Shown here: positions 10,117 to 28,508 of the stretch, in pieces | Numbering within the stretch: the first letter of the stretch is position 1 | Layout of the letters: each line of letters starts with the position of its first letter | Source of the DNA: Rhodococcoides fascians A25f | GTDB lineage: Bacteria; Actinomycetota; Actinomycetes; Mycobacteriales; Mycobacteriaceae | NCBI RefSeq assembly: GCF_000760935.2 | Contig: NZ_CP049744.1 | Span: forward strand, 1,832,501 to 1,896,500 | Direction of reading: 5' to 3' | Length of the DNA stretch: 64,000 nucleotides | Translations under genes and position numbers: made by a program | Notes under the pieces: generated by a model | What the model saw: the letters and a program-made list of their open reading frames with translations, nothing else | What the model was told of the DNA's origin: nothing | Database searches by the model: none

Positions 10117-10139
10117 CTTTTGCGATGTACGGTACTGAC

Positions 10140-10877: not shown

Positions 10878-10912
10878 TCTATCTCACCGCCTCACCGGCA
10901 AGGACTGTGTAC

Positions 10913-11914: not shown

Positions 11915-11944
11915 CACAGTTCGACTCACCCTTGGAGCACAACC

Positions 11945-13411: not shown

Positions 13412-14331
13412 CTCCACGATTGATCCACACCGGTCAGGTGATCGTCGACGTGGTGATGGCCGTACCCGAAGTGCCGGTTCCGGGAGGTGACGTCGTGGCG
13501 ACGTCACTGAACGAGACCGCGGGCGGTGGACTCAATGTGATGGTCGCTGCGATTCGTGACGACCTGCCGGTGATCTTCGCCGGCAGATACGGGTCCGGCC
13601 ACTACGGTTCGATCGTCCGTGAAGCTCTGTCTTCCAGCGGTGCTCTTGTCGTCAACGCTGTTCCTGCTGAGCAGGACTCGGGATTCTGCATCGCCCTCGT
13701 CGATGCGAACACCGAGCGCACGTTCGTGACCTACCCTGGGGCCGAGGCGGAACTGAGCATCGGGGACCTCGAGGCGGCAGGGGTACGGAGTGCGGACTCG
13801 GTGTACATCACCGGCTACGGGTTGGCGCACGAGAGCAACGCCGCGGCACTGACCGCGTGGCTACCGACGCTACCCGCGGACGTCACGGTGCTGTTCGATC
13901 CGTCCCCGTTGATCGCCACGCTGAACCGCGACGTGGTGGACGCCGTTCTCGCCCGTGCCGACATCGTGAGCGTGAATCTACGCGAGGGCATGCTCATGAC
14001 GGATGAGGTCGATATCGACTCCATCGCAGCCGAATTGGTGACGAGGGTGCGGCCCGATGCGGCGGTGGTAGTCCGTACCGGTCCGGACGGTTGTCGAATC
14101 GCGGGCGGTGGACGAACGTCGCAATCGGTTCCGGGGTTCGAGGTGCAGGCGGTGGACTCGAACGGTGCGGGCGATGCTCACGCCGGGGTGTTGTTGGCGG
14201 GACTCTCCCGTGGACTCGGTCTGTACGACGCGGCGCTGCGGGCCAATGCTGCTGCAGCACTTGCGGTCACCGAGCGAGGACCGGCGACGGCTCCGCTTCG
14301 ATCACGTACCGACGGGTTGGTCGGAGAGTGA
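13408..14331 (+). CDS. PfkB/ribokinase family sugar or nucleoside kinase
   Basis: 307 residues starting at a GTG that overlaps the permease stop by four bases, so translation is coupled. The N-terminal substrate region has GGGLNVMVAA. The C-terminal signature DSNGAGDAHAGVLLAGL contains the catalytic Asp and the GAGD anion hole. The family phosphorylates ribose, nucleosides or related sugars with ATP. In this module it would phosphorylate the sugar released by the glycohydrolase, or the imported nucleoside itself. Its 3' end overlaps the convergent LacI gene by 30 bases. Confidence 0.9.
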   Translation: MTPRLIHTGQVIVDVVMAVPEVPVPGGDVVATSLNETAGGGLNVMVAAIRDDLPVIFAGRYGSGHYGSIVREALSSSGALVVNAVPAEQDSGFCIALVDANTERTFVTYPGAEAELSIGDLEAAGVRSADSVYITGYGLAHESNAAALTAWLPTLPADVTVLFDPSPLIATLNRDVVDAVLARADIVSVNLREGMLMTDEVDIDSIAAELVTRVRPDAAVVVRTGPDGCRIAGGGRTSQSVPGFEVQAVDSNGAGDAHAGVLLAGLSRGLGLYDAALRANAAAALAVTERGPATAPLRSRTDGLVGE

Positions 14332-15357
14332 GGGGGCCCTCCGTCCCGGAACCGTCGAGTCACGCACGACGAGTGTCGGTGTCAACGCCATCGAGGACGC
14401 CGGAAGTCCGTGGGTGACCGCCAGCAGCATTTCTGCTGCGCGCGTGCCGATTTCGCGGTGGGGGCTGTGAATCGTCGTCAGCGGAACGGTCAACTCGCTG
14501 CAGATCGAGATGTCGTTGTAGCCGACGACGGCTACGTCGCGTCCTGGCTGCAGCCCCGACTCACGCAGCACGCCGAGCACTCCGATGGCGCTGAAATCGT
14601 TGGTCGCGAAGATGGCCGTCGGCGGAGTCGGCAGCGCCAGAAGTGCGCTGGCCCCGCGTCTTCCGGCGTCGGGATCGAACCCCTCTTCCCGAACGTACTC
14701 GTCCGGGACGTCGATGCCGGCGTCGTGCAGAGCGGCGCGGCAGCCTTCGAGCCGGTCGATTCCGGTGCTGGCCCAGGCCGGACCCGACACGATGCCCACG
14801 CGAGTGTGGCCGAGTCGGGCGAGGTGTTCGCCGGCCAGGTAGCCGCCGCGATGGTCGTCGCACGTCACCGAGGCCATCCCGGGGTATCGACGGCTGACGA
14901 GGACGAATTTGATGCCCCGACGATGGAGGTTCTCGAGATTCTCACTGTCGAGGCGGGCGTCGCCGAAGATCAGTCCGTCGACGTTGCGGCCGACGAGAAG
15001 GTCGATCCGTCGTCGCTGCTGGACCGGATCGTCGTGGGTGTTCGCGACGAACGTCTCGTAGCCCGCGCGGTTGGCCGTTTCCTCGATCGCGTCGTACATC
15101 GCGGAGAGCACCACATCGGTCAGTCGTGGCACCAGGACGCCGAAGGCGGTGGATTTCTTCGTGGTCAGACTCGCCGCGTTGGGATTGGGCACGTAGTCCA
15201 TCTCGCGGGCCAGCTCGAACAGTCGCAGATCTCCGGCACTGGCGCCGGCCGGGTCGAGCGCGACGCGGCGCAGCGCTCGGGAAACGGTCGAGACATGCAC
15301 TCCCGCAGCAGCCGCGACCGTTTTGAGCGTGACGCTCCCCGAACTGGTGCTGTCCAC
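14302..15357 (-). CDS. LacI family transcriptional regulator
   Basis: 351 residues. The N-terminal HTH reads VTLKTVAAAAGVHVSTVSRALRR, then the hinge, then a periplasmic-binding-protein-like effector domain (about residues 65-335) with typical GYNDISI and LTTIHSP segments. It diverges from the formamidase-like gene, and a LacI-type operator sits in the space between them. A related site lies before the 16.6 kb operon. It therefore probably represses the pyridine carboxylate locus. This differs from Pseudomonas nic clusters, which use the MarR-type NicR. Effector unknown. Confidence 0.88.
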   Translation of the reverse strand: MDSTSSGSVTLKTVAAAAGVHVSTVSRALRRVALDPAGASAGDLRLFELAREMDYVPNPNAASLTTKKSTAFGVLVPRLTDVVLSAMYDAIEETANRAGYETFVANTHDDPVQQRRRIDLLVGRNVDGLIFGDARLDSENLENLHRRGIKFVLVSRRYPGMASVTCDDHRGGYLAGEHLARLGHTRVGIVSGPAWASTGIDRLEGCRAALHDAGIDVPDEYVREEGFDPDAGRRGASALLALPTPPTAIFATNDFSAIGVLGVLRESGLQPGRDVAVVGYNDISICSELTVPLTTIHSPHREIGTRAAEMLLAVTHGLPASSMALTPTLVVRDSTVPGRRAPSLSDQPVGT

Positions 15358-15423
15358 TTGCGGTTCCCCTCGATCATCCGTCGGACCTGCCCCGACCCCT
15401 GCTGGCCCCTAAGCTAGCACCGT

Positions 15424-15439
15424 GCGCAATCGTTTGCGC
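15424..15439. promoter_or_regulatory. LacI-type operator before the formamidase-like gene
   Basis: GCGCAATCGTTTGCGC: a 16-bp near-perfect palindrome centred on CG (seven of eight pairs match), the form expected for LacI/PurR-type repressors. It lies between the divergent lacI and amiF-like genes, 31 bases before the preferred ATG at 15470. The alternative upstream GTG at 15422 would place the operator inside the gene, which argues for the later start. Confidence 0.7.
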
Positions 15440-15469
15440 AATAAGTTGCCCCCGAGGAACGGACTTCTG

Positions 15470-16504
15470 ATGACAGGTTTGGGTGGTCTCAATCCATCGC
15501 CGACGTCTCTCACTCTCGGCCTGGTGCAGCAGCAGGTTCCGCTGATCACCAGCATGGCCGATGTGGACGAGACGACCGATCGCGTGTGCAGGCAACTGCG
15601 TGAGGCGAAGGCCGGGTTCGCCGCACTCGACCTCGTTGTGTTCCCGGAGTATTCGTTGCACGGTCTGCGGAAGTCCTCGTGGGCGTCCGACGAGGTGATG
15701 TGCGACATGGACGGTCCGCAGGTGGAGCGATTGCGTGCGGCGTGCCGCGAGTCGAAGGTCTGGGGGTGCTTCAGCATCATGGAACGCAACCCCGGCGGAG
15801 CGCCGTTCAACTCCGGAATCGTCGTCGACGATCAGGGGGAGATAGCCCTGTACGTTCGCAAACTTCATCCCTGGACGCCCAAGGAGCCCTGGGAGCCCGG
15901 CGACATCGGCCTACCGGTCTGCACGGGGCCGAAGGGTTCGGTGCTGTCGCTGTTGATCTGTCATGACGGGATGTTCCCGGAGATGGCGCGGGAGGCGAGC
16001 TACCGCGGTGCCAATGTGCTGCTGCGCACGGCCGGATACAAGTTCCCGCTTCGGCAGTCTTGGCGTATCACCAACGAGGCCAATGCATTCCACAACCTGG
16101 CGTTCACGGCCTCGGTCTGTTTGGCCGGGGAGGACGGCAACGGTATCCCGTCCATGGGTGAGGCGATGGTGTGCGACTTCGAGGGCACGATCGTCGAGCG
16201 CGGCGACTCCACCCCCGACCGGGTGGTGACGGTGTCGATCGAACCGGCCCGCGCCGATGCTGCCCGGCGCGAGTGGGGCGTGGAGAACAACATCTATCAA
16301 TTGGGGCATCGTGGGTACACCGCGCTCGACGGCGGGGCGCGCGATTGCCCGTACACCTACGTCCGCGATCTCGCCGACGGAACCTACCGAGTTCCGTGGG
16401 AGGACGAGGTTCGCATCGTCGACGGGACGTCGGAGGGGTACGGACCTCCGCGTCGAGACGGCAGTCCGATCGATACGGCCAGGGCCGGTCTGCGCGGCGA
16501 GTAA
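15470..16504 (+). CDS. formamidase-like (AmiF) nitrilase-superfamily amidase
   Basis: 344 residues, matching AmiF formamidase almost throughout: FPEYSLHGL with E60, VRKLHPWTPKEPWEPGD with K131, LLICHDGMFPE with C164, then ENNIYQLGHRGY and PWEDEV near the end. The Glu-Lys-Cys triad is intact and at nearly the same positions as in H. pylori AmiF. AmiF cleaves formamide to formate and ammonia. Here the gene sits in a pyridine-degradation locus where N-formylmaleamate must lose its formyl group, so an N-formyl amide may be the true substrate (inference). It is preceded by its own LacI-type operator and a GAGGAAC ribosome site. Start at ATG 15470 rather than GTG 15422. Confidence 0.88.
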   Translation: MTGLGGLNPSPTSLTLGLVQQQVPLITSMADVDETTDRVCRQLREAKAGFAALDLVVFPEYSLHGLRKSSWASDEVMCDMDGPQVERLRAACRESKVWGCFSIMERNPGGAPFNSGIVVDDQGEIALYVRKLHPWTPKEPWEPGDIGLPVCTGPKGSVLSLLICHDGMFPEMAREASYRGANVLLRTAGYKFPLRQSWRITNEANAFHNLAFTASVCLAGEDGNGIPSMGEAMVCDFEGTIVERGDSTPDRVVTVSIEPARADAARREWGVENNIYQLGHRGYTALDGGARDCPYTYVRDLADGTYRVPWEDEVRIVDGTSEGYGPPRRDGSPIDTARAGLRGE

Positions 16505-16612
16505 GGCGGAGGTTACGCGATCGGTGCCCGTGTAACGGTGCCATTAATTGGTCTTCGATTTGTTGGCCAATGCTCGACATCGAGCGTGAAACCCCCCTAT
16601 CGTCAGGGCTAC

Positions 16613-16638
16613 GCAATCGGTTGCACGACCGGTTGCAC
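16613..16638. promoter_or_regulatory. paired LacI-type operators before the pyridine-degradation operon
   Basis: GCAATCGGTTGC (16613-16624) is a CG-centred palindrome sharing the CAATCGnTTGC core with the site at 15424-15439. The nonamer CGGTTGCAC occurs at 16618-16626 and again at 16630-16638, giving a second, weaker half-site. They end 25 bases before the ATG at 16664, a good repressor position. Confidence 0.65.
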
Positions 16639-16663
16639 AGCAAGCGAAAGAAGGCTCGTTTCG

Positions 16664-17296
16664 ATGACTTCCCAGGTAGGCGACTCTCTGGAGCTCACGG
16701 ACCGCACCCGCCACGACATCGATTCGATGTCGTCGGGGGATGTGTACAAACTCTTGTCCTGTGCGGTGCAGCCACGCCCGATCGCCTGGATCTCCACAGT
16801 GTCCGGCACCGGTGTTCGCAACCTGGCACCGTTCAGCTTCTTCAACGTCGCGTCACGGAACCCGGCCACCCTGATGATCTCCATCGGTGAGCGCATCGGC
16901 TTTCCGGGCGAATTCAAGGACACGTTGGTCAATATCCGCGACACCGGCGAATTCGTCGTCAACATCCCGTCGGCGGAGACTGTGAACGCCGTGACCGCAA
17001 GTTTCGCGACAGTGGACGCGGACGTCGACGAGTTCGAGCTCTCGCACATGACGGCCGTTCCATCGGTGTCTGTCTCGGCCCCGTCGGTGCTCGAATCCCT
17101 GGTCTCTCTCGAATGCCGGACGCTCCAGGAAATCGCACTCGGTTCCGACACTCTCGTGCTCGGGACCGTCACGACGGTGACCAGCAGACCGGGGTTGCTC
17201 ACCGACGATCTGCACGTCGACACGCTCGAACACCGATTCCTCGGCAGGTTGGCCGGCCCGTTCTACACAACCGACATGAATCGAGTGGCGCAATGA
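16664..17296 (+). CDS. flavin reductase-like, FMN-binding split-barrel protein
   Basis: 210 residues. The segment RPIAWISTVSGTGVRNLAPFSFFNVASRNPATLMIS (about residues 39-74) is the conserved FMN-binding core of the DIM6/NTAB flavin reductase-like family, and LVNIRDTGEFVVNI follows. First gene of the pyridine-degradation operon; its stop codon overlaps the next start (ATGA). The NicC-like monooxygenase in the operon is single-component and needs no separate reductase, so the partner of this protein is unclear. It could reduce flavin for an enzyme elsewhere or bind FMN for another reaction. Start chosen after GAAAGAAGG; the frame is open to 16538 across the operators. Confidence 0.83.
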   Translation: MTSQVGDSLELTDRTRHDIDSMSSGDVYKLLSCAVQPRPIAWISTVSGTGVRNLAPFSFFNVASRNPATLMISIGERIGFPGEFKDTLVNIRDTGEFVVNIPSAETVNAVTASFATVDADVDEFELSHMTAVPSVSVSAPSVLESLVSLECRTLQEIALGSDTLVLGTVTTVTSRPGLLTDDLHVDTLEHRFLGRLAGPFYTTDMNRVAQ

Positions 17297-18186
17297 CCAC
17301 CTCGGCGCATCTGCGCGGCGTCGACGCTCGGCCGGTGGTCGATACGTTCGATATCGCTGTGGTGCAGACCAGTTCGCGAACCGGTGCCTGGCAGCAGAAT
17401 ATCGACGCGGTGAGCTCGGAAGTCCGTGTTCTCGCCGCCGGTGGCTCCAAGGTGATCGTGCTGCCCGAACTGTTCGCCAGCGGTTACGATCTCGGCAGCA
17501 TCGACGCGATGGCCGAGTCGGTGCCCGGCCGCACATCGATCGCGCTCGGAGAACTCGCCGCCGAGACCGATACGGTTCTGGTGACGGCAATGGTGTTCCG
17601 CGATTCCGAGGGAGTCGTCTTCGACAGCTCACTCGTCGTGGGTCCGGACGGTCTGCTTGCCCTGGGACACAAGCGGTTTCTGTGGGACCGTGAGAACGCG
17701 GTGTTCACCCCGGGTGCGCAGAGCGGTCTGCTGGTCGACACCCCGTTCGGATCAATCGGCGTCGTGATCTGTTACGAGGCAGGGTTTCCCGAGACCGTCC
17801 GCGATCTGGTGCAGCGAGGAGCCGATATCATCGCCGTGCCGTCGGCCTTCGGTCACGTCCGCCTGCACGTGTGGAAGCTGCTCACGCGATCCCGCGCACT
17901 CGAGAACGGTGTTGTCGTGGCCGCAGCGGGGCTCACCGGGCAGACCGGCGACGGACCGCGGTTCGCCGGACACAGCGTCATTGTCGGGCCGCAGGGCCGC
18001 ACCATCGTCGAGATGGCCGAGACCGTCGGATCGGTCTCGGCGACGGTCTCCAGACGCGAACTGCAAGACGCACGCGACGAAGTGCCCTATCTGAAAGATC
18101 TTGCCCGACTGGGCGGTATCACCGAGACACGAACGACCGAGAACGATCACGAGAGGAACCGAGATGTTCGATCTGCGATCAGCTGA
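17293..18186 (+). CDS. carbon-nitrogen hydrolase (nitrilase superfamily), candidate maleamate amidase
   Basis: 297 residues. Catalytic triad: E59 in VLPELFASGY, K127 in LGHKRFLWD, C160 in GVVICYEAGFPE. These enzymes hydrolyse amide or carbamoyl C-N bonds. It overlaps the flavin-reductase-like gene by four bases and nicX by 23 bases, so it belongs to the pyridine operon. In the known nicotinate route NicF, an isochorismatase-type enzyme, converts maleamate to maleate and ammonia; no such gene is present here, and this enzyme is a candidate substitute (inference). The second nitrilase-family enzyme of the locus is the AmiF-like protein. Confidence 0.85.
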   Translation: MTTSAHLRGVDARPVVDTFDIAVVQTSSRTGAWQQNIDAVSSEVRVLAAGGSKVIVLPELFASGYDLGSIDAMAESVPGRTSIALGELAAETDTVLVTAMVFRDSEGVVFDSSLVVGPDGLLALGHKRFLWDRENAVFTPGAQSGLLVDTPFGSIGVVICYEAGFPETVRDLVQRGADIIAVPSAFGHVRLHVWKLLTRSRALENGVVVAAAGLTGQTGDGPRFAGHSVIVGPQGRTIVEMAETVGSVSATVSRRELQDARDEVPYLKDLARLGGITETRTTENDHERNRDVRSAIS

Positions 18187-19195
18187 TCTGTTGCGCGCCT
18201 TCACCCGTCAGCTCGAGCTGTGCAAAGTTCAGCCCGGAGAACAGGTGGTGATTCTCGCGGAACCGTCGAGCCGTGGTGACTACATCTCGGCTGCTTTCGG
18301 AGCGGCCCAGAGCCTGGGCGCACAGGTACTCGCGGCCACCGTCCCGGGCGGCAGCCCCGCACCGATGCCCAGCACGCACACCGGTGCAGGCCCCGGGCTT
18401 GTCTCGGTCATGAACAGTTCGGTGGCTCAGGACATGCTCAAGGGTGCGGACCTGGTGGTAGACCTCACCAGTGAGGGCTTCATCCATGCGCCCATTCAGC
18501 AGGAAATTCTGGCCGCCGGCACGCGCATCATCTTCGTCTGCGACGCCCCGGACGTGTTGATCCGGAACATGCCGCAGGACGGCGACAAAGAACGGGTCCA
18601 GGCGGGGGTCGATCTGATCCGCAGCGGCTCGACCATGCGCATCACCAACGACGCTGGCACCGATCTGACCGTGCAGCTGAGCAATTCGCAGCCCGAGTTC
18701 CAGGTGGGCTTCGCCGACGACAAGGGCCGCTGGGATCACTGGCCGTCCACCATGGTGTTGTGTTGGCCGGAGATCTCGAATGGAAAGATCGTGCTCTCCG
18801 AGGGCGATATCTTGTTGCCGTTCAAGGAATACGTCCGGGACGAGACGACTCTGACGGTCACCAACGGCCACATCGACGAGGTGACCGGCGGGGGTGAAGC
18901 TGCATTGCTCAACATGTTCTTCGCGGACTCCAACGACAAGTGGGCGCGCTACCTGTCTCACATGGGCTGGGGACTGATGAAGACCGGCGACTGGTTCGCT
19001 GCGGCGATGTACGGCAAGGACGACATCATGGGCATGGACGCCCGAGCGTTCGCCGGCAGCTTCCTGTGGTCCACCGGCCCGCATCCCGTACTCGGCCGAG
19101 ATTCCTACGCGCACCTCGACATCGGAATGCGCGCCTGCACCGTATCCATCGACGGCATCGATGTCGTCACCGAAGGTCGATTGGTGGAGAGCTGA
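18164..19195 (+). CDS. nicX: 2,5-dihydroxypyridine 5,6-dioxygenase (NicX-like)
   Basis: 343 residues, close to the roughly 350 of Pseudomonas putida NicX. The enzyme opens the ring of 2,5-dihydroxypyridine with O2 to give N-formylmaleamate and needs Fe(II). Family blocks are evident: KGRWDHWPS, GDILLPFKEYVRDE, SHMGWGL, GMDARAFAGSFLWSTGP and AHLDIGMRAC. Residues H266, H317 and D319 align with the iron ligands H265, H318 and D320 reported for NicX. The ATG at 18164 follows GAGAGGAACC. The gene overlaps the nitrilase gene and is followed one base later by the NicC-like gene. It is the best marker for the pathway assignment. Confidence 0.87.
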   Translation: MFDLRSADLLRAFTRQLELCKVQPGEQVVILAEPSSRGDYISAAFGAAQSLGAQVLAATVPGGSPAPMPSTHTGAGPGLVSVMNSSVAQDMLKGADLVVDLTSEGFIHAPIQQEILAAGTRIIFVCDAPDVLIRNMPQDGDKERVQAGVDLIRSGSTMRITNDAGTDLTVQLSNSQPEFQVGFADDKGRWDHWPSTMVLCWPEISNGKIVLSEGDILLPFKEYVRDETTLTVTNGHIDEVTGGGEAALLNMFFADSNDKWARYLSHMGWGLMKTGDWFAAAMYGKDDIMGMDARAFAGSFLWSTGPHPVLGRDSYAHLDIGMRACTVSIDGIDVVTEGRLVES

Positions 19196-19196
19196 C

Positions 19197-20456
19197 ATGG
19201 CACCGATCGAAGTGGTGATCGCGGGCGGCGGTTTGGGTGGGCTGACCGCGGCGCTCTCTTTGCGGCACAGGGGCATCCAGGTGACGGTGCTCGAAGCCGC
19301 TGCCGAGCTCGGCGAGGTCGGAGCAGGCATCCAGACCGCACCGAACGCCAGCCGCATTCTCATCGCTCTCGGGATGCGTGACAAGCTGGAAGCGATCAAG
19401 ACCGAGCCGATGGACCAGGTGCGCAGGCGGTGGGAGAACGGCAAGGTCATTGCGCTCACCGCCCTCGGCGAGTACTGCAAGAAGACGTTCAATGCGCCGT
19501 ATTGGCATTACCATCGCGCGGACCTGCATTCGGCCATTCATGCGCAGTGCCTGGACCCCGACGGCCCGGGCCCGATGGTGGTGTTCGAGACCGACGCGAA
19601 GGTCGTCGAGGTCGATCGAACGAATCCGACGCGGCCCGTCGCGGTCACCGGAACCGGAAGACGCTACGAGTCGGACCTGCTCATCGGAGCCGACGGTATT
19701 CGTTCGACCGTGCGCGATCTGATCGGTCTACCCGATACTCTCGTGTTCTCCGGTGAAATGGCCTATCGCGCTTTGATTCCGGGTGATCGCATCGTCAAGG
19801 ACCCGGCCACCCGCTGGCTCGTCGACCGATACCAGAGCACCATCTGGTACGGACCCGACCGACACCTGGTGCACTACATGATCCGTAACGGTGAGTACCT
19901 CAATGTCGTTGCGCTGGCCCCGTGTACCGACGAGGTCCGCGACGGCGGACCGCGGCTCGTCGGGCCCGAGGAACTGATGGGGACGTTCCCGGACTGGGAC
20001 GACCGCGCCCACGCGATGCTCTCGAAGGCCGACGAGAACGTGCTGTGCCAGGCGCTCTACTACCGCAGACCCGATCCTCGCTGGACCGACGGCCGCGTCG
20101 CCTTGCTGGGCGACGCGTGCCATGCCATGCTGCCGTACCAGGCGCAGGGCGCGTCGCAGGCGATGGAAGATGCGGCCGTGCTCGCCGAGGAACTCGCGAA
20201 GGTCACCTCGAGCGGAATCGACGACGCGTTGGCACGCTACGTCTTTCGCCGAGCCCGGCACGCGCGGATGGTGCAGGACGCGAGCCTGCAGAACAAGACT
20301 TTCTACCACATACCCGATGGACCCGAGCAGCAGAAGCGGGACGCGACACTGGCGTCGTTCGATGGGGAGTCCGACATCTCGTACGACTGGCTGTGGAGCG
20401 GTACTCCGCTCGACGACAGCGACGACGAGAAATTCCATTACTCGTTCGTCCGATGA
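19197..20456 (+). CDS. nicC: FAD-dependent monooxygenase, 6-hydroxynicotinate 3-monooxygenase (NicC)-like
   Basis: 419 residues of the single-component (class A) flavin hydroxylase family. The FAD-binding GxGxxG motif is GGGLGGLTAALSL near residue 8, the second motif LLIGADGIRSTVRDLI follows, and RVALLGDACHAMLPYQAQGASQAMEDA holds the conserved GD. NicC hydroxylates and decarboxylates 6-hydroxynicotinate to 2,5-dihydroxypyridine, the substrate of the adjacent NicX. Salicylate hydroxylases look similar, so the specific role rests on context. The ATG at 19197 follows GGTGGAGAG and overlaps nothing; the stop overlaps the transporter start (ATGA). Confidence 0.82.
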   Translation: MAPIEVVIAGGGLGGLTAALSLRHRGIQVTVLEAAAELGEVGAGIQTAPNASRILIALGMRDKLEAIKTEPMDQVRRRWENGKVIALTALGEYCKKTFNAPYWHYHRADLHSAIHAQCLDPDGPGPMVVFETDAKVVEVDRTNPTRPVAVTGTGRRYESDLLIGADGIRSTVRDLIGLPDTLVFSGEMAYRALIPGDRIVKDPATRWLVDRYQSTIWYGPDRHLVHYMIRNGEYLNVVALAPCTDEVRDGGPRLVGPEELMGTFPDWDDRAHAMLSKADENVLCQALYYRRPDPRWTDGRVALLGDACHAMLPYQAQGASQAMEDAAVLAEELAKVTSSGIDDALARYVFRRARHARMVQDASLQNKTFYHIPDGPEQQKRDATLASFDGESDISYDWLWSGTPLDDSDDEKFHYSFVR

Positions 20457-21883
20457 CGACCTCGGACCACAACACCGCGCCGGAGGCTGCGATGAAGACT
20501 GGTGATCAGGTAGTACAGGAGCTCCCCTGGAAATGGGGTGTGCAGGGCAAGATCTTCATCATCGGCGGGCTGGGCTACATGTTCGACGCCTGGGACGTAG
20601 CGCTGAACGGATTCTTGACGCCCCTGCTCGGCAGCTACTGGGACCTCTCCCAGGCCGAGCGCGGGCTCGTCGCCACCGGCAACCTGATCGGCATGGCCGT
20701 CGGCGCCGTCGTGTGGGGAACGATCGCCGACCGAGTCGGGCGTAAGCGCGCATTCTCGTTGACGCTGTTGATCTTTGCGCTGTTCTCGGTCCTCGGCGCT
20801 TTCGCGCCGAGCTTCGAGATCTTCATCATCCTGCGGTTCCTGGCCGGGTTCGGCCTCGGCGGCTGCATCCCCGTGGACTACGCGCTGGTCAGCGAATTCT
20901 CACCCCGCCGAATTCGCGGCAAAATTCTGTCCGCGATGGACGTCTGGTGGCCCATCGGTGCCACCATCTGCGGCGTCGTCGCCACGCTTCTCGTCCCCAT
21001 CGACGGAGACGTTCGTTGGCGCTACATGCTGCTGTTCATGGTTCTGCCTGCGCTGCTGCTGTTCTGGGTTCGACGCGGCATCCCCGAGTCGCCGATCTAC
21101 CTCGCCAAGGTCGGCCGAGAAGTCGAGGCCCGCGCCGTCATCGACGACATGGTGACGCGCACCGGATCCGAGGCCGTCGAGTACGTCATCGTCGCCGATA
21201 CCGCGCCGAAGGGGCCGGGCGGAATGAAAGCGGCTCTGACACAGCTGAAATCGGTCTGGCGCTACAGCCCACGCATTACCGCCGCAGCGTGGATGCTGTT
21301 CGTGTCGATCATGCTGCTGTACTACGCGGCGCTCAGTTGGATGCCGTCCATCCTGCGGGCCGAGGGCTACGGCGAGTTCGCAGCCTTCGCCGGTACGACG
21401 CTCATGACCGGAGTAGGCATCGTCGGTGTGCTCACCTCGGCGTTCATAGTCGAGATATTCGGTCGCAAGTGGGTCATCGGGTTGTCGGGTCCTATCGCCG
21501 GTAGTGCGCTGGTCTTGTTCGCTGTCATGCTCGACATCCAGTCTGCAGCTCTGATCTGGCTGGGCATCTTCGGATTCGTCATCCAGCTGACCATCCCGGT
21601 GCTGTACTGCTACGTCTCCGAGTTGTACCCCACCAATATTCGCGCCTCGGGATTCGGCTACGCATCCTCGGTCAGTCGGGTGGCCACCGGATTCGCTCCT
21701 CTCCTGTTCGGTTCGGTCATGTGGCCGATCCTCGGTCTGCCGTTGACATTCGGCATCGTCACAGCGTTCGTGCTGTTCGCGGTTATCTGGATGGCGTACT
21801 TCGCACCGGAGACCAAGGGGCGCGAACTCGACACCCTCGTCGACGAACCCGCCGAGGTAGTCGCAGGCGAGGCTCGGGTCTGA
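20453..21883 (+). CDS. MFS transporter, NiaP/NicT-like aromatic acid carrier
   Basis: 476 residues, 12 predicted membrane helices. GGLGYMFDAWDVALNGF in helix 1 has the Asp pattern of niacin and aromatic acid carriers (NiaP/AAHS). The loop after helix 2 is ADRVGRKRAF, and RFLAGFGLGGCIPVDYALVSEF is helix 4. It ends with a hydrophilic tail, APETKGRELDTL. In this operon it most likely imports nicotinate or a similar pyridine carboxylate. Start overlaps the nicC-like stop (ATGA), and its stop overlaps the next start by one base (TGATG). Confidence 0.87.
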   Translation: MTTSDHNTAPEAAMKTGDQVVQELPWKWGVQGKIFIIGGLGYMFDAWDVALNGFLTPLLGSYWDLSQAERGLVATGNLIGMAVGAVVWGTIADRVGRKRAFSLTLLIFALFSVLGAFAPSFEIFIILRFLAGFGLGGCIPVDYALVSEFSPRRIRGKILSAMDVWWPIGATICGVVATLLVPIDGDVRWRYMLLFMVLPALLLFWVRRGIPESPIYLAKVGREVEARAVIDDMVTRTGSEAVEYVIVADTAPKGPGGMKAALTQLKSVWRYSPRITAAAWMLFVSIMLLYYAALSWMPSILRAEGYGEFAAFAGTTLMTGVGIVGVLTSAFIVEIFGRKWVIGLSGPIAGSALVLFAVMLDIQSAALIWLGIFGFVIQLTIPVLYCYVSELYPTNIRASGFGYASSVSRVATGFAPLLFGSVMWPILGLPLTFGIVTAFVLFAVIWMAYFAPETKGRELDTLVDEPAEVVAGEARV

Positions 21884-22734
21884 TGAAGCCCGCGCAGTTC
21901 GACTACCACCGGGCACGCGATGTCTCGGGTGCAGTGCGGCTGCTGGCCGAGCTGGGCGAGGACGCGAAGATCATCGCCGGAGGCCAGTCCCTGGTCGCCA
22001 TGATGAACTTCCGCCTCGCCCGGCCCGGACATCTGGTCGACGTGGGTGGGTTGAACACTTTGCGTTACATCCGCCGAGAATCCGACGGCCTCCACATCGG
22101 AGCGCTCACCACCCACCACGACGTCGAATCCGGAGACGTGGGAACGGACTTCGCTGTTCTTCGCCAGGCCATGCGGTGGGTGGGGCACTACCCGATCCGT
22201 ACGCGCGGAACTGTCGGAGGCAGCATCGCTCATGCGGACGCCACCGCGGAATGGTGCTTGCTCGCCATCCTGCTCGACGCCCGCATCGTCGTCGAGAGCG
22301 TGCGGGGGCGGCGAACCGTCGAGGCAGACTCGTTCTTCTTCGGGTACTACTCCACCGATCTCGCGTTCGACGAGATGATCGTCGAGATCGTGTTCCCGCA
22401 CCCGGCACCACACGCTGCGGTGACCGAGTATGCCGAGCGACAGGGTGATTTCGCGATCGTGGGCGCGGCCGTATCCCTCGATCTCGACGGTGTGGCCGTG
22501 GTGGGTGGACGCGTCGCTCTCGCGGGAGTGGGCGCGACTCCCGTTCGATCGTCCGCAGGTGAGGCCGTTCTGGCCGCCGGTGGAACGTTCGGCGACTGTG
22601 CGGATGCCGCAGCCGAGGAACTGGAATTGGAGGACGAGGGCATGGTCACTGCCGAATATCGGCGCACCCTGGTGCGCACATTGGTGGCCGAAGCCTGCAG
22701 CGACGCACTGGTATCGCAGGGGGTGCCCACATGA
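21883..22734 (+). CDS. molybdenum hydroxylase, FAD-binding (medium, CoxM-type) subunit
   Basis: 283 residues. KIIAGGQSLVAMMNFRLARPGHLVDV (about residues 29-54) and IRTRGTVGGSIAHADATAEW (about 105-124) are the two FAD-binding signatures of the CoxM/XdhB family. The C-terminal domain is of the CO-dehydrogenase flavoprotein type. It passes electrons from the iron-sulfur subunit to FAD and an acceptor. Gene order medium, large, small subunit is the classic CoxMLS arrangement. With the next two genes it would form a nicotinate 6-hydroxylase (nicotinate dehydrogenase) or a hydroxylase of a related ring. Confidence 0.92.
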   Translation: MKPAQFDYHRARDVSGAVRLLAELGEDAKIIAGGQSLVAMMNFRLARPGHLVDVGGLNTLRYIRRESDGLHIGALTTHHDVESGDVGTDFAVLRQAMRWVGHYPIRTRGTVGGSIAHADATAEWCLLAILLDARIVVESVRGRRTVEADSFFFGYYSTDLAFDEMIVEIVFPHPAPHAAVTEYAERQGDFAIVGAAVSLDLDGVAVVGGRVALAGVGATPVRSSAGEAVLAAGGTFGDCADAAAEELELEDEGMVTAEYRRTLVRTLVAEACSDALVSQGVPT

Positions 22735-25097
22735 GCGTCGATCAGGTTCTCACGCCCAAGTTCGTCGGCACCTCGGTCGCACGCCGCGAGGACCCTCGAT
22801 TGCTCACCGGCCGAGGCAGATTCGTCGATGACATCGCGATGCCGGGCATGCTGCACGCCCAGTTCGTGCGCAGCACCGTGGCGGCCGGACACATCACCGG
22901 TCTCGATGTCGGTGATGTCGCAGGGGTCGAGGGAGTACACCGCGTCTTCACTGCGGCGGACTTGGACCTGCGGCCGATTCGCGCCGAATTATCCCGTCCG
23001 CTCAGCGAATTCGTGCCCACCGACATGCCCGTCCTGGCGCACGACGTCGTACGTTACGTCGGTGAGCCGTTGGCCATCGTCGTCGCCGCCGATGCGTACA
23101 GCGTCGAGGACGGACTCGAAGCGGCACGAGTGTCGTACCGGACCGTCACCGCAGTCACCTCCGCAGATCAGGCCATATCCGAGGGCGTGCCCCTGGTGCA
23201 CGATTCGGTGCCGAACAACACCGTCGTGGACGTGCAGATGTTCGCCACCGAGGGCATCGACGAGATCTTTCACGACGCACACACCGTGGTGTCCGTGCAG
23301 TCCAGAACGGGGCGTCAGAACGCACTGCCGCTCGAGACCCGCGGATGCATTGCCTACTGGGACGACCGCGACGAACAGTTGATCATCTATATCTGCACGC
23401 AGGTCCCGCACCAGGTTCGGACAGTCACCGCGCAGTGCCTCGGTCTCGACGAACGCCAGGTTCGGGTCGTCGTGCCCGACATGGGCGGCGGGTTCGGGCA
23501 GAAGTGCGTCGTCGGCCGCGAGGAGATCGCCGTCGCGGCAGCTGCATTGAAGCTCCGTCGCCCGGTCAAGTGGATCGAGGATCGCAAGGACGCACTGACG
23601 GCGTCCTTCCTGGCACGCGAGCAGCAGTACGACGTGCGGGCCGCGTTCGATTCCGAGGGGCACATTCTCGGCCTCGACGCCGACGTCGTGTGCGACATGG
23701 GTGCGTACTCGTGCTACCCCTTCACCGCGGGCATCGAGCCGCTCATGGCCTCCGCCGAAATGCCGGGGGTGTATCAGGTTCCGGCCTATCGGGTGCGGGG
23801 TCGTTCCGTGTTCAGCAACAAGGCACCGACGGCGCCGTACCGCGGAGTGTCACGCCCGCAGTACGTGATGGTGATGGAGCGGCTGTTCGAGCGAGCGGCT
23901 CGCGAACTGCAGCTCGATGCAGTGGAGATCAGGCGGCGCAACGTGATCACCGCGTTCCCGTACACCGGTGTCAACAACATCACCTACGACCCGGGCTCGT
24001 ACCTCGAGGCCCTGAACCTGTGCGAGCAGACGCTGCGGGACGGCGGTTGGTACGACCTTCAGGAGCGGGCGACCGCCGACGGCCGACACATCGGCATCGG
24101 CTACTCGTGCTTCAGCGAGCGAACCGGATACGGCAGCAGTGCATTCGCGGCCCGCAAGATGAACGTGGTCCCCGGATTCGACATCTCGGAGGTCAGGATG
24201 GACACCTCCGGCACCGTCGTCGTGACCACCGGAACGATGAGCCACGGGCAGAGCCACGAGACCACCATGGCGCAGATCGTGGCCGACCGACTGGGAATCA
24301 CGGTCGATCAGGTCAAGATCGTGCAGGGCGACACCGACCGGATCACGTACGGCTTCGGATCGTTCGCCTCTCGCTCGATCACCATCGGCGGCAGTGCGGT
24401 GGCGCTGGCGTCGACCAAATTGGGAGACAAGCTGTGCGAGATCGCCGCGCACCTGCTGGAGACTCGCGACGACAACGTCGAGCTGGCCTCGGGGCGGGTG
24501 CGTCAGCGTGACGACCACTCGAAGTACGTCACCTACCGGGATATCGCCGACGTCGCGTATCTGAAGGCACAGTTGCTGCCCAAGGGGGTCGAGCCGGGGT
24601 TGTCCGCGACGGCGAGTTTCGACGTGTTCAACGACGGCACGTTCTCCAACGCCACCCACGGCGTCGTCGTCGAATTGCACGAGGGCACCGGGCAAGTGGA
24701 GATCCTGAAGTACGTCTGTGTCGAGGACTGCGGGGTCGCGATCAATCCGAAGATCGTCGAGGGCCAGTGCCGCGGCGGGATCGCGCAGGGGATCGCCGGC
24801 GCGTTGTTCGAGCAGGTGTCGTACGACGAGAATGGAAACCCGCTGTGCGCCAGCTTCATCGACTACAAGGTGCCGACGGCGTGCGAGATTCCCGACATCG
24901 AGATCCATCACCTCGAAACTCCCTGCCTGTTCACCGAATCCGGAGCCAAAGGGGCAGGTGAGGGTGGAACGATCGGCGCACCGGCCGCGGTGCTCAATGC
25001 CGTCAACGACGGATTGCGTTCCACCGGAGTCGAACTGAACGACACACCGATCACTCCCGTCGCAGTACAGGCGGCACTGGCGAAGGGAAGGCCATGA
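22731..25097 (+). CDS. molybdenum hydroxylase, molybdopterin-binding (large) subunit
   Basis: 788 residues, normal for xanthine dehydrogenase-family large subunits. It opens GTSVARREDPRLLTGRGRFVDD, typical of CoxL-type proteins, and contains the cofactor loop DMGGGFGQKC and APYRGVSRP. The C-terminal GAKGAGEGGTIGAP carries the catalytic Glu. The CO-dehydrogenase active-site loop (AYRCSFR) is absent, so it is not CO dehydrogenase. Expected reaction: water-derived hydroxylation of the pyridine ring, for example nicotinate to 6-hydroxynicotinate. The start overlaps the FAD-subunit stop (ATGA) and the stop overlaps the iron-sulfur subunit start. Confidence 0.92.
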   Translation: MSVDQVLTPKFVGTSVARREDPRLLTGRGRFVDDIAMPGMLHAQFVRSTVAAGHITGLDVGDVAGVEGVHRVFTAADLDLRPIRAELSRPLSEFVPTDMPVLAHDVVRYVGEPLAIVVAADAYSVEDGLEAARVSYRTVTAVTSADQAISEGVPLVHDSVPNNTVVDVQMFATEGIDEIFHDAHTVVSVQSRTGRQNALPLETRGCIAYWDDRDEQLIIYICTQVPHQVRTVTAQCLGLDERQVRVVVPDMGGGFGQKCVVGREEIAVAAAALKLRRPVKWIEDRKDALTASFLAREQQYDVRAAFDSEGHILGLDADVVCDMGAYSCYPFTAGIEPLMASAEMPGVYQVPAYRVRGRSVFSNKAPTAPYRGVSRPQYVMVMERLFERAARELQLDAVEIRRRNVITAFPYTGVNNITYDPGSYLEALNLCEQTLRDGGWYDLQERATADGRHIGIGYSCFSERTGYGSSAFAARKMNVVPGFDISEVRMDTSGTVVVTTGTMSHGQSHETTMAQIVADRLGITVDQVKIVQGDTDRITYGFGSFASRSITIGGSAVALASTKLGDKLCEIAAHLLETRDDNVELASGRVRQRDDHSKYVTYRDIADVAYLKAQLLPKGVEPGLSATASFDVFNDGTFSNATHGVVVELHEGTGQVEILKYVCVEDCGVAINPKIVEGQCRGGIAQGIAGALFEQVSYDENGNPLCASFIDYKVPTACEIPDIEIHHLETPCLFTESGAKGAGEGGTIGAPAAVLNAVNDGLRSTGVELNDTPITPVAVQAALAKGRP

Positions 25098-25597
25098 GCA
25101 ACAAGCAACTGATCGAACTGACCGTCAACGGTATCGAGCACGAAGTGATCAGCGAGCCACGCCGCACCCTGGTCGACGTGCTACGGCACGACCTGCAGCT
25201 GACCGGAACCCATGTGGGGTGCGAGCACGGCGTGTGCGGTGCCTGCACCGTTCTGATCGACGGCAAACCGGCTCGCGCCTGCCTGACCTTCGCGGCGCAG
25301 GTCGAGAGCTCCGACATCCGGACCGTCGAATCACTCGGCCGGGACGGCGAATTGAGTGACCTACAGCAGGCATTCGCAGACCACCACGGCCTGCAGTGCG
25401 GATTCTGCACGCCTGGATTTCTGATGCTGGCCGAGGGCTATCTCGCCGAGCATCCGGACGCCACCAAGGAGGAGATCCGCGAGGTGGTCGCCTCGAACTA
25501 CTGCCGTTGCACCGGATACCAGACCATCGTCGAGGCCATCGACTCGTGCGCCGAACAGCGCCGCTGCGTCGGCTGTGTGAACGGAGTTTCCCAGTGA
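25094..25597 (+). CDS. molybdenum hydroxylase, 2x[2Fe-2S] (small) subunit
   Basis: 167 residues. The plant-type cluster ligands are C43, C48, C51 and C63 (GCEHGVCGACTVLIDG...AC). The second cluster ligands are C102, C105, C137 and C139 (QCGFCTPG and YCRCTGYQ). It carries electrons from the molybdenum centre to the FAD subunit. Start overlaps the large-subunit stop by four bases, and the stop is overlapped by the GTG of the CoxG-like gene, showing a fully coupled unit. All eight cysteines are present, so the subunit should be functional. Confidence 0.94.
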   Translation: MSNKQLIELTVNGIEHEVISEPRRTLVDVLRHDLQLTGTHVGCEHGVCGACTVLIDGKPARACLTFAAQVESSDIRTVESLGRDGELSDLQQAFADHHGLQCGFCTPGFLMLAEGYLAEHPDATKEEIREVVASNYCRCTGYQTIVEAIDSCAEQRRCVGCVNGVSQ

Positions 25598-26220
25598 TAC
25601 TGACCAATACCCTCGAGATCGACGCATCGGCCGATGACGTCTTTCGGCTGATCAACGACGTCGAGAAGGTGGCGACCTGTGTACCGGGTGCCGCCATCAC
25701 CGGCAAAGACGGTGAGACATTTCTCGGCGGGGTCAAAGTGAAGGTCGGGCCGATCAGCGCCTCGTACGCGGGCACCATTCGGTTCCTCGAGGTCGACGCC
25801 GAGACCCGCACGCTCTCACTCGAAGCCAAGGGCGCGGACTCGCACGGAAACGGCGATGCCGAGGCTCAGGTGGATCTGTCGGTCGAGGCGATCGGCGACC
25901 GCTCGCGGTTGACGTTGAACACCGATCTGGTCATCAGCGGAAAGATCGTCTCGTTCGGCAAGGGCGCGATCGTCGCGGTCTCGAACAAGGTGCTGCAGCA
26001 GTTCGCCGTCAATCTCGGTGCGCTGCTCAGTGGTTCGGCTACGGCCGATCCAACCACGCCGGCAGCGGTGAGGGCTGCTGTTGCGAGCCCGATCGGCGGT
26101 GAGTTGAACGCGATGAGCCTGCTGCCCGAACCGGTGCGCAAGTACGCACCGATCGCGGGCATCTTCCTCGCCGGAATGGTCGAGGGCTGGCTGGTGTCCA
26201 GGGCCTTCGGGCGACGGTAG
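25594..26220 (+). CDS. CoxG-like SRPBCC protein (molybdenum hydroxylase accessory)
   Basis: 208 residues from a GTG overlapping the previous stop. Residues 1-145 form an SRPBCC/CoxG domain (FRLINDVEKVATCVPGAAIT, GGVKVKVGPISASYAGTIRF). The C-terminal part ends in a hydrophobic helix, YAPIAGIFLAGMVEGWLVSRAFG. CoxG in carboxydotrophs anchors CO dehydrogenase at the membrane, and homologues accompany many molybdenum hydroxylases, so a role in membrane anchoring or maturation is plausible. Last gene of the operon; the convergent racemase-like gene begins one base later. Confidence 0.88.
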   Translation: MILTNTLEIDASADDVFRLINDVEKVATCVPGAAITGKDGETFLGGVKVKVGPISASYAGTIRFLEVDAETRTLSLEAKGADSHGNGDAEAQVDLSVEAIGDRSRLTLNTDLVISGKIVSFGKGAIVAVSNKVLQQFAVNLGALLSGSATADPTTPAAVRAAVASPIGGELNAMSLLPEPVRKYAPIAGIFLAGMVEGWLVSRAFGRR

Positions 26221-26221: not shown

Positions 26222-26887
26222 TCAGCTGCGCACCGCGCTCGAGATTCTGTCGACGACCATCGCAACGGCACTCGGAACCGGCTCGATGACGTCCACGTCG
26301 GTGCGCAGCGCCAGCCGCCGAGCCGAATCGCTCAACGGTCCGCCGCCGATGACGACGGCGCTGGCTCCGGCGGCCGCTGCTGCATCGACCGCTGTTCCCA
26401 GTTCGACAACGCTCGATGCGAGGTCCTCGGCCAGGACCAACGGCGATGACGCAGTGAGGAACACACCCGCGAAATCGCCGTCGGGCACGGTGGCACGAGT
26501 CAGTGCATCGAGTGGGGCGGCGAGATCGGCTGTGGTGGTGGCGATCGCGAAGCGGCGACCGCCTCGTGCGGCGTGCAGGATTCCTGCCTCGCCGATCCCG
26601 ATGACCGGAATGTCGACGAGGGTTCGGAGTTCGGCCGCACCGGGATCACCGAACGCGCCGACGATCACGGCGGCCGGGTCATGGTGCTCGATCGCGTCGA
26701 GGGCCGCTGCTACGACATCCGCTTCGGCAGCACGCAGCTGTTCGGTGCCGGTGATCATCGCCGGTCCGGTACCCGCGGTGACCCCGATGACGGTGAATTC
26801 TGTGTCGTAGAGCCAACGCCGCGCGACGTCGACGAGCAGCTGCGTCGTTGCAGTGTTCGAGTTGGGGTTGATCAAGAGAATCTTCAC
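26222..26887 (-). CDS. Asp/Glu/hydantoin racemase-fold protein lacking both catalytic cysteines
   Basis: 221 residues. The fold is clear: ILLINPNSN at the start, VIVGAFGDPGAAELR, VIGIGEAGILHAA and VVIGGGPLSDSA. Active racemases of this family, including allantoin and hydantoin racemases and maleate isomerase, use two Cys residues, found where A78 (in VGAFGDPG) and G182 (in VIGGGPL) lie here. This protein contains no cysteine at all, so a normal two-base Cys racemisation is not possible. It may bind a ligand or catalyse another reaction. It follows the MFS transporter gene by three bases on the same strand and is probably co-transcribed with it. Confidence 0.82.
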   Translation of the reverse strand: MKILLINPNSNTATTQLLVDVARRWLYDTEFTVIGVTAGTGPAMITGTEQLRAAEADVVAAALDAIEHHDPAAVIVGAFGDPGAAELRTLVDIPVIGIGEAGILHAARGGRRFAIATTTADLAAPLDALTRATVPDGDFAGVFLTASSPLVLAEDLASSVVELGTAVDAAAAAGASAVVIGGGPLSDSARRLALRTDVDVIEPVPSAVAMVVDRISSAVRS

Positions 26888-26890: not shown

Positions 26891-28309
26891 TCAGCCATCT
26901 TCCGGCATGGGTTGTCCGAAGGTCTCTTTCGGGAACTGCACGGCGATTCCGCACACGATGAACAGGCCCGCCAGCATCGCGAACATGGCACCCACGCCGG
27001 ACGAGTCCAGGACGGCTCCGGCGATGAGCGGGAACAGTCCGCCGGAGAGGGAGCCCAGCGCCAGGATCACCGACGTCGCGAGGCCACGGATTCGCGTCGG
27101 GTATTGCTCGGGCGCGAACAGCCAGATAGTCGTGTTGAGGATGATGACCGAGAAATTGAACAGCGCACCGAAGAACAGTACGAGGCCGATAGAGGTTGCG
27201 AAGAAGCCGAATCCGAGTCCGGCAACGATGCCGAGCGCCGCTCCGCAGGTCAACGTCACTTTACGTGGAAGCTTGCGAGCAATGAGCGCGGCGGTCAGAG
27301 CGCCGATCAGCGACCCGGACTGCATCACGAGGGTGTACCAGAGCGCACTCGAGATCGACATTCCCCGCTCGGTCAGGATGACGGGGATGAGGGTGAGCAT
27401 CGAGATCTGGGCTGCGTAGGACATGCAGACGGCGATGCCGAGGGCGAGAGTGCTTCTGCGGTAACGCTTGCCGAACATTTCCGTCCACCGTGCGCGCGGT
27501 GCGGCCTGTTCGTCGACCGAGGTGTCGACGTTCAAGTACTGAACCTCGGAGTCGAGCGCGCCACGAAGCTTGCCCTGCGCGAGGCGGTTGATGACGGTGT
27601 TGGCCTCGGCCACACGGCCCGTCGCCGCGAGGAAGCGCGGTGTTTCCGGAAGCGAGCGGCGATAGAACACGACCGCGAGTGCCGGCAGCACGAGCAGACC
27701 GAACAGCCAACGCCAGCGATCGTCACCGGTGAAGATGGCGAAGACGATGACGCCGAACAGTGGGGCGAGCATGTTGCCCAGGCCGGCCGCTGCGACGTTG
27801 ATCATGCCGACCGCGGTACCGCGATGCTTGGCGGAGAAGAACTCGGAGAGCATGATCACCGCCACGGCGATTTCACCGCCGAGTCCGAGCCCGACCAGGA
27901 ATCGAGCGCCCACCAATACTTCGTAGTTGGGTGCGAATGCGCACAGTAGCGAGCCGAATGCGAACACGAGCAGGTTTGCACCGAGGAGGGTTCGACGACC
28001 GAAACGGTCCATCACCGCGCCGGCCAGGATGCGGCCGAGTGCGACGGCGGTGAACGTCGCTGTGTTCAGCAGTCCGATCTCGGTGCCGCCGAGGCCCCAG
28101 GATTCACGCAGTAGCGGCCCGGTGATGCCGACGGCATTCTGTTCGACGGCGTCGAAGAACACACCGAACAGGACCATGGCGACAATGCCGAAGTGCGCAG
28201 TGGTGAGGCCGATCTTCGAGTACGACGCCTCGATCTGTTCGCTGAGACCGGCCGCCTCGGGCGGTGGGTCGATCGGTGACTGCTTCTCGTTCGTGGTCGG
28301 GACGCTCAT
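26891..28309 (-). CDS. MFS transporter (organic acid or sugar-acid type)
   Basis: 472 residues with 12 predicted helices, a hydrophilic N-terminus of about 35 residues and a central loop around residues 225-275. Signature loops are AGAVMDRFGRRTL after helix 2 and RFLVGLGLGGEIAVAVIM in helix 4, with PEQYPTRIRG late in the protein, so it belongs to the metabolite:H+ symporter group. Substrate unknown. Its promoter region carries one TGGTATACCA site and faces the divergent GntR/FCD regulator, which has two more such sites. The racemase-like gene follows as a second operon member. Confidence 0.87.
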   Translation of the reverse strand: MSVPTTNEKQSPIDPPPEAAGLSEQIEASYSKIGLTTAHFGIVAMVLFGVFFDAVEQNAVGITGPLLRESWGLGGTEIGLLNTATFTAVALGRILAGAVMDRFGRRTLLGANLLVFAFGSLLCAFAPNYEVLVGARFLVGLGLGGEIAVAVIMLSEFFSAKHRGTAVGMINVAAAGLGNMLAPLFGVIVFAIFTGDDRWRWLFGLLVLPALAVVFYRRSLPETPRFLAATGRVAEANTVINRLAQGKLRGALDSEVQYLNVDTSVDEQAAPRARWTEMFGKRYRRSTLALGIAVCMSYAAQISMLTLIPVILTERGMSISSALWYTLVMQSGSLIGALTAALIARKLPRKVTLTCGAALGIVAGLGFGFFATSIGLVLFFGALFNFSVIILNTTIWLFAPEQYPTRIRGLATSVILALGSLSGGLFPLIAGAVLDSSGVGAMFAMLAGLFIVCGIAVQFPKETFGQPMPEDG

Positions 28310-28338: not shown

Positions 28339-28475
28339 ACAGCGGAGAATTTACGGAGATGCGCGCCGTGGAAGGTTTCCTGGCAGTAACACTTGCGTTT
28401 CCAAATGCTCTCACCTGGTTCTTTCCTTGGACGTTTGAGCGTTGCGACATCCGCCGCCGGAGCCTGCGGATGCGC

Positions 28476-28503: not shown

Positions 28504-28508
28504 ACATC

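Follow-up and report, generated by a model that had tools for sequence, protein, structure and literature searches.

A predicted operon for aerobic nicotinate breakdown in Rhodococcoides fascians A25f with an alternative lower cassette

Gene content of the locus

Here, we analyzed a 64,000-nucleotide stretch of the Rhodococcoides fascians A25f chromosome (the window; contig NZ_CP049744.1), in which ten plus-strand genes fill positions 15470 to 26220. Gene geometry and Pfam/NCBIfam scans of the window proteins indicated that they form one operon (Table 1). All adjacent genes overlap or almost touch, except for a gap of 159 bases between the AmiF-type formamidase gene and the gene for a flavin reductase-like protein (PF01613). 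The original prediction, which was made from the sequence alone, had listed a molybdenum (Mo) hydroxylase, a NicC-like monooxygenase, a NicX-like dioxygenase, a carrier, an AmiF-like formamidase, and a second nitrilase-superfamily amidase (Nit). All of these were recovered by Pfam, NCBIfam, or PDB matches. The PF01613 gene, the CoxG-like protein, the divergent LacI gene, and two operator sites had not been named. In our view, with a probability of about 0.6, these genes make up a regulated operon through which nicotinate is broken down aerobically by way of an alternative lower cassette, in which AmiF would deformylate N-formylmaleamate and Nit would hydrolyze maleamate.

Table 1. Features of the operon and its control region (positions in the window)
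Feature	Position	Strand	Basis and remarks
LacI-family regulator	14302..15357	-	NCBIfam LacI-family matches; divergent from AmiF
Operator site 1, GCAATCGTTTGC	15426..15437		Pattern GCAANCGNTTGC; strand not assigned; between LacI gene and AmiF
AmiF-type formamidase	15470..16504	+	NCBIfam formamidase NF009803, 501.7 bits (cut-off 406); PDB 5g3o, E 2.5e-113
Promoter-like sequence	16574-16603		Upstream of operator site 2
Operator site 2, GCAATCGGTTGC	16613..16624		Strand not assigned; before PF01613 gene, 3' of promoter-like sequence
Flavin reductase-like protein	16664..17296	+	PF01613, 77.1 bits
Nit, second nitrilase-superfamily amidase (CN-hydrolase)	17293..18186	+	PF00795, 124.1 bits
NicX-type 2,5-dihydroxypyridine 5,6-dioxygenase	18164..19195	+	PDB 7cn3, E 2.7e-65
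FAD monooxygenase, NicC-like	19197..20456	+	PF01494; 6-hydroxynicotinate as presumed substrate
MFS carrier, aromatic acid:H+ symporter type	20453..21883	+	TIGR00895, 230.8 bits, below cut-off of 418.55
Mo hydroxylase, FAD-binding subunit	21883..22734	+	PF00941, PF03450
Mo hydroxylase, molybdopterin-binding large subunit	22731..25097	+	PF02738, PF20256, PF01315; motif GAKGAGEGG starting at residue 738; nicotinate as presumed substrate
Mo hydroxylase, 2Fe-2S subunit	25094..25597	+	PF01799, PF00111
CoxG-like protein	25594..26220	+	PF06240, 59.6 bits

Exchange of the lower cassette on a common NicX core

A scan with NicX yielded 31 loci. Twelve carried AmiF, the flavin protein, and Nit, 13 carried NicD and NicF, and 6 were left unassigned: L022 and L023 end early, and L027, L028, L030, and L032 are distant or carry neither cassette. 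Addition of the plasmid locus L033 brought the NicD/NicF type to 14 loci, and addition of the window and of L116 to L118 from three further genomes brought the AmiF type to 16. No assigned locus combined both cassettes. The Mo hydroxylase was found with either type (14/16 AmiF loci and 13/14 NicD/NicF loci) and was not in the examined DNA of L024, L025, and L026. By Pfam, L010, L014, and L026 have isochorismatase and alpha/beta-hydrolase genes, and the first two also have Amdase genes. A nicotinate-type route to N-formylmaleamate with a non-orthologous lower pathway, as originally proposed, was thus supported both by homology and by the swap, since a common NicX core is joined to NicD/NicF in 14 loci and to AmiF/Nit in 16.

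On a NicX tree of 34 rows, 30 of them with a cassette label, the label needed two changes, and none of 200 bootstrap trees required only one. A single AmiF clade was rejected (P value of the approximately unbiased test [p-AU], 0.0084). The cassettes were therefore exchanged at least twice on this tree, with the exact placing of the exchanges left unsure by the long row L026. Identity was 62% between the monooxygenase of the AmiF-type locus L024 and that of the NicD-type locus L026, compared with 44 to 53% to three others; there is thus another upper module that is combined with either cassette.

The distribution of AmiF followed that of its operon. At an E value of ≤1e-50, AmiF was matched in 13 of the 30 genomes with NicX loci, which were exactly the AmiF-type ones. 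Among 201 genomes of the family, a set overlapping with the former (e.g., G581 and G394), window-type NicX (≥74% identity) occurred in 9, each with AmiF no more than 3 kb away. The other 192 genomes gave an AmiF match in six cases, two at ≥49% and four at about 36% identity. The recurrence of the cassette in 16 loci indicates that the gene set of the window is not due to chance.

Several loci differed in their composition. L024 and L025 of Mycolicibacterium (7800-20300) contain LacI, Nit, NicX, the monooxygenase, the flavin reductase-like gene, and AmiF, with no Mo hydroxylase, and L024 additionally contains UbiD and a UbiX-like flavoprotein. L027 (1659-11023), from an Actinomycetota metagenome-assembled genome, has LacI, two operator sites, HpaB with a flavin reductase, an NCS1 carrier, a PF01425 amidase, the flavin reductase-like gene, and NicX; AmiF and Nit were not found in this locus. 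In L028 (8478-15307) of Streptomyces brasiliensis, the flavin reductase-like gene, Nit, and NicX are consecutive and are followed by AllG, an NCS1 carrier, and malic enzyme. In L010 (13039-14469), a NicD-like hydrolase and a MarR regulator share a single reading frame.

Absence of NicD, NicF, and a linked isomerase

NicD and NicF had been reported as missing, and neither gave a match in the window's genome at an E value of ≤1e-15. With NicD of L014 as the query, none of nine AmiF-type genomes, including the window's own, was matched at this threshold, while all three controls were, one of them being the query's own genome. Weaker NicF relatives occur in G533, G436, and G523, in each case away from the cluster.

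A maleate isomerase had likewise not been visible to the original prediction, and the genome encodes a single maleate-isomerase-like protein (PF17645; C1:4133644), which lies 2.3 Mb away and shares 52% identity with the plasmid-borne isomerase at locus L034. NicE was found inside none of the 16 AmiF-type loci. A NicE homolog of at least 51% identity was present anywhere in the genome in 5 of the 16 AmiF-type genomes (G000, G394, G397, G400, and G523). The remaining genomes gave no match at an E value of ≤1e-10 (eight genomes) or matches of only 26 to 29% (three genomes), in a search that did not extend to maleate hydratase or other isomerases. G436, which was assembled as a single contig, is among those without a close NicE. 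NicE lies inside the examined DNA of 8 of the 14 NicD/NicF-type loci; in the other six, a match lies just past the end, as judged by coordinates only. Lack of the isomerase thus characterizes the AmiF operon type. A role of C1:4133644 in the nicotinate pathway is weakened because it adjoins Hydantoinase_A and Hydantoinase_B genes and because 11 of the 16 AmiF-type genomes lack a close homolog.

Catalytic cysteines are the defining feature of maleate isomerase. The RacE gene directly behind the operon (26222-26887, minus strand) encodes a member of the Asp/Glu-racemase family (PF01177) with no cysteine at all and was rejected as the absent isomerase. It is followed by an aromatic-acid-type MFS carrier (26891-28309, minus strand) and a GntR/FCD regulator (28347-29183, plus strand), and this unit is not constant behind the operon, being found downstream of it in L002 and L008 and not in L003 to L006. 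In G523 (C52 and C65), an AmiF-type nicotinate cluster coexists with another NicX relative, in whose neighborhood lies an isomerase that shares 86% identity with the L034 enzyme.

A subfamily of AmiF marked by basic residues

The window AmiF is about 48 to 50% identical to AmiF of Helicobacter pylori and Bacillus cereus. The Cys-Glu-Lys triad, the Trp/Tyr wall, and the other named active-site residues are kept throughout an alignment of five cluster AmiFs, one stand-alone AmiF, and both solved enzymes. In H. pylori AmiF, Trp137 and Tyr192 are described as forming a small room that admits formamide only, while B. cereus AmiF also accepts acetamide (PMC10781810). The wall and the other named residues also persist in four more distant relatives (about 34% identity). 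The closer stand-alone copies, four in number and one of them with Met replacing the wall Trp, depart from the cluster copies elsewhere.

Ten positions carried one and the same residue throughout the 16 cluster copies and another residue in each of the four close stand-alone copies. Seven of them (64, 67, 68, 138, 191, 192, and 194) lie after the catalytic Glu60, beside Glu139, or after the wall Tyr190. Among the 120 best homologs together with the window, R67, K68, K138, and K191 were the only positions that separated 26 signature rows, including the window, from 95 others at 95%/5%, and each is a gain of a basic residue in the cluster AmiFs. The cluster AmiFs therefore form a distinct subfamily, with extra basic residues that were not found in the stand-alone relatives, even where one genome holds both kinds, as three do (G399/G572, G436, and G523). 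A second AmiF-like copy at G416:C10:27449-28456 contains an in-frame TGA.

The four basic residues suggest an acidic substrate. They could hold the maleamate part of N-formylmaleamate while the wall leaves room for the formyl group, and it is because of this fit that we favor deformylation of N-formylmaleamate by AmiF.

Nit as a candidate maleamate amidase

The best fold match of Nit was mouse Nit2 (2w1v; E value, 4.3e-27; TM score, 0.80; 29% identity in the fold alignment; mean pLDDT of the model, 82.6), and the expected Glu-Lys-Cys triad is invariant. In a hydroxaminolysis assay, succinamate is used by human Nit2/omega-amidase (PMC5485471). Maleamate corresponds to this compound with a double bond added. 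Because its best fold match is an omega-amidase, Nit is proposed as the putative maleamate amidase.

Role of the flavin reductase-like protein

PF01613-type proteins often merely reduce free flavin. The closest solved structures were component B of nitrilotriacetate (NTA) monooxygenase (3bpk) and the 2-nitrobenzoate nitroreductase NbaA (4z85), and the fold search did not single out a substrate. The gene was present in 16/16 AmiF-type and 0/14 NicD/NicF-type loci. The oxygenases recognized in the operon were NicX and the FAD_binding_3 monooxygenase, and no component requiring external reduced flavin was recognized among its genes. Relatives of this monooxygenase occur without a nearby flavin reductase gene. 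Since the upper enzymes occur without it, the PF01613 protein probably serves the lower pathway.

The exchange is three for three, and 11 of the 16 AmiF-type genomes lack a close NicE; the PF01613 protein may therefore replace the isomerase. It would reduce the maleyl double bond, in N-formylmaleamate, maleamate, or maleate, to give succinate, or would act as a flavin-dependent isomerase, with either order of the two amidases. The opposite distribution of the flavin gene and of NicE, which accompanies all 14 NicD/NicF-type loci when the matches just past the locus end are counted and none of the 16 AmiF-type loci, is consistent with this role, as is the scarcity of close NicE homologs in the AmiF-type genomes. 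The title of NbaA as a nitroreductase and the existence of upper enzymes without a flavin gene point in the same direction. The fungal nicotinate pathway is described as containing a flavin-dependent alkene reductase of a different family, HxnT (PMC9304392). However, the closest relative of known structure bears the name of a monooxygenase component B, which is of the flavin-supplying type, eight genomes of the NicD/NicF side carry a relative of 38 to 44% identity elsewhere, and five AmiF-type genomes do have a NicE-like gene; enzymes such as maleate hydratase also lay outside the search. We consider this replacement possible and put it forward tentatively. The complete scheme, in which a three-gene cassette of AmiF deformylase, omega-amidase-like maleamate amidase, and a new kind of PF01613 maleyl double-bond reductase (or flavin isomerase) replaces NicD, NicF, and NicE and delivers the carbon to the tricarboxylic acid (TCA) cycle as succinate with no need for maleate isomerase, is somewhat more doubtful.

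A helper function, in which the PF01613 protein keeps the iron of NicX reduced or supplies reduced flavin while an unlinked enzyme handles maleate, would agree with the family membership and with L027 and L028, in which the flavin gene also adjoins NicX and AmiF is lacking. NicX and the monooxygenase of the NicD/NicF-type loci manage without such a gene in the locus DNA examined, though, and no reductase-dependent oxygenase component was recognized in the operon of the window. This function is therefore rated as rather unlikely.

Formamide release as an alternative

The two amidases may also be arranged differently. Nit would cleave N-formylmaleamate at the maleyl carbonyl to give maleate and formamide, and AmiF would convert the formamide to formate and ammonia, which is its native reaction. 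We preferred this route at first, since AmiF keeps the Trp/Tyr wall and the stand-alone AmiFs were assumed to be alike. It is in line with the score of AmiF above the formamidase cut-off and with the conservation of Trp137 and Tyr192 (H. pylori numbers), and it makes L028, where Nit adjoins NicX in a genome with no AmiF match, easier to understand. In the degradation of 4-hydroxypyridine, direct formamide release has been considered for a comparable reaction and was not favored (PMC7356986). However, the Trp/Tyr pair alone is no mark of formamide specificity, given its conservation in the relatives of about 34% identity and the use of acetamide by B. cereus AmiF, and the four basic residues that set the cluster AmiFs apart near the named residues are hard to explain if both kinds use formamide. 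The route was demoted to a rival for these reasons, and we regard it as unlikely. The suggestion in the original prediction that AmiF acts on an N-formyl acid amide thus gains indirect support from the contrast with stand-alone AmiFs and still has to compete with this arrangement.

Upper pathway and substrate

Relatives of the window NicX in the seven loci L002 to L008 of the Rhodococcus/Rhodococcoides fascians group were 96 to 99% identical. In an alignment to Pseudomonas putida NicX (7cn3 being the matched structure of this enzyme), all four iron ligands (His265, Ser302, His318, and Asp320) and also His105 and His189, as described in PMC7910607, are kept. The closest solved relatives of the monooxygenase were the FAD protein 8r2t, decarboxylative vanillate 1-hydroxylase, 4-hydroxybenzoate "decarboxylase", and tropone 2-monooxygenase, followed by NicC (8uiq/5eow). 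Relatedness to decarboxylating hydroxylases would suit a decarboxylating hydroxylation of 6-hydroxynicotinate. No separate decarboxylase gene was recognized within the operon, and with a Mo hydroxylase and a NicC-like monooxygenase present, nicotinate appears to be the best-fitting substrate.

Another pyridine acid that also leads to 2,5-dihydroxypyridine, such as picolinate or 5-hydroxypicolinate, would be compatible with the different upper modules that accompany the lower genes in L024 (UbiD with a UbiX-like flavoprotein) and in L027 (HpaB with a flavin reductase). The enzyme set of the window itself fits nicotinate better, so such a substrate is quite improbable; picolinate, named as an alternative in the original prediction, has lost ground for the same reasons. 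A route through 2,3,6-trihydroxypyridine and alpha-ketoglutaramate that employs an omega-amidase has been described in Rhodococcus and Arthrobacter (PMC9304392); it was considered and not favored because a NicX relative is present.

Regulation

A relative of the LacI-family protein was found in all 16 AmiF-type loci and, at >50% identity, in none of the 14 NicD/NicF-type loci. The pattern GCAANCGNTTGC has two matches in the 64 kb of the window, with 0.06 expected. Across the 16 AmiF-type loci, 32 sites fit it, at least one in each, while the 16 loci on the NicD/NicF side, a count that takes in L022 and L023, had none. L027, which has the LacI relative and no AmiF, has two such sites. A looser operator search in six genomes gave 26 matches in the window's genome against 31 for a reversed-pattern control, the sole exact one being in this operon; some excess was seen in G403 (38 versus 22) and G436 (13 versus 7), partly from their own clusters. 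The divergent LacI-family protein, acting on the predicted sites, probably controls the operon, most likely as a local repressor.

Upstream, positions 10065 to 14331 contain a GntR-type regulator, an ADP-ribosylglycohydrolase, an NCS1-type carrier, and a PfkB kinase, which resemble a separate nucleoside/nucleobase unit. These genes adjoin the LacI gene in L002 to L006 and not in L008, L009, and L011, and they were rejected as members of the system.

Proposed pathway

To the computed gene set, operator, repeated exchange, and active-site and subfamily residues, we add by inference the reactions, their order, the location of the basic residues within the fold, and the assignment of the LacI-family protein to the operator. 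The Mo hydroxylase would convert nicotinate to 6-hydroxynicotinate, the NicC-like monooxygenase would convert the latter to 2,5-dihydroxypyridine, and NicX would open the ring to give N-formylmaleamate. AmiF would then remove formate, with the small formyl pocket kept and the gained basic residues holding the acid part, and Nit would release ammonia from maleamate to give maleate. The flavin reductase-like protein would belong to the lower cassette in the place of NicE, and the LacI-family protein would provide control through the GCAANCGNTTGC sites.

Several points weigh against this pathway. AmiF scores above the NF009803 cut-off, which is that of an ordinary formamidase family, and a review notes no systematic testing of formamidase substrates other than formamide (PMC10781810). 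The basic residues, noticed post hoc, are near the named active-site residues in terms of sequence only, and shared ancestry of the cluster AmiFs could account for part of the signature. Nit lies far under all NCBIfam cut-offs. The NicX proteins of the window and of the 12 further actinobacterial loci compared, which cover both locus types, have Gln at the position of Glu177, a substrate-binding residue in the P. putida enzyme. L028 has Nit and the flavin gene beside NicX, with no AmiF match in the genome and no NicD in the locus DNA examined; its substrate may differ.

If the pathway is correct, bacterial nicotinate breakdown has a lower half that can be swapped as a module, and missing NicD, NicF, and NicE are poor ground for calling the nicotinate pathway absent. 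Some proteins annotated as formamidases in databases would belong to a subfamily of different function that is recognizable by four residues, and the PF01613 flavoprotein would gain a testable function.

Comparison with known systems

No paper tying a formamidase to nicotinate breakdown was found in the literature searched, which takes in few subscription journals; relative to that literature, the operon is a new variant of the known nicotinate pathway. At the level of single enzymes, AmiF shares the family cut-off and the named active-site residues with the H. pylori and B. cereus enzymes and differs from them by the four basic residues and by its setting in a ring-degradation operon. Nit shares the fold and the Glu-Lys-Cys triad with omega-amidase/Nit2, whose known substrates are C4-C5 dicarboxylic monoamides, and differs in sequence, with 29% identity.

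The actinobacterial operons L010, L012 to L018, L020, L021, L029, L031, and L033 have the same core of NicX, monooxygenase, Mo subunits, and CoxG-like protein, with the carrier in 11 of the 13. They differ by NicF- and NicD-like genes, which in L010 lie between the monooxygenase and the carrier, and by NicE in or just past the locus DNA.

The nic pathway of the NicD/NicF/NicE type, as in P. putida and the plasmid loci L035 and L036 (for which we derived gene names from the annotation), shares the NicC-like monooxygenase and NicX with the window and, in L035, the Mo hydroxylase. The intermediates are probably the same as far as N-formylmaleamate and maleamate. In contrast, the window has no NicD, NicF, or clustered NicE and instead has AmiF, the flavin reductase-like protein, and the omega-amidase-like protein, together with a LacI-type regulator and its operator and a separate FAD-binding Mo subunit, which is not annotated in L035.

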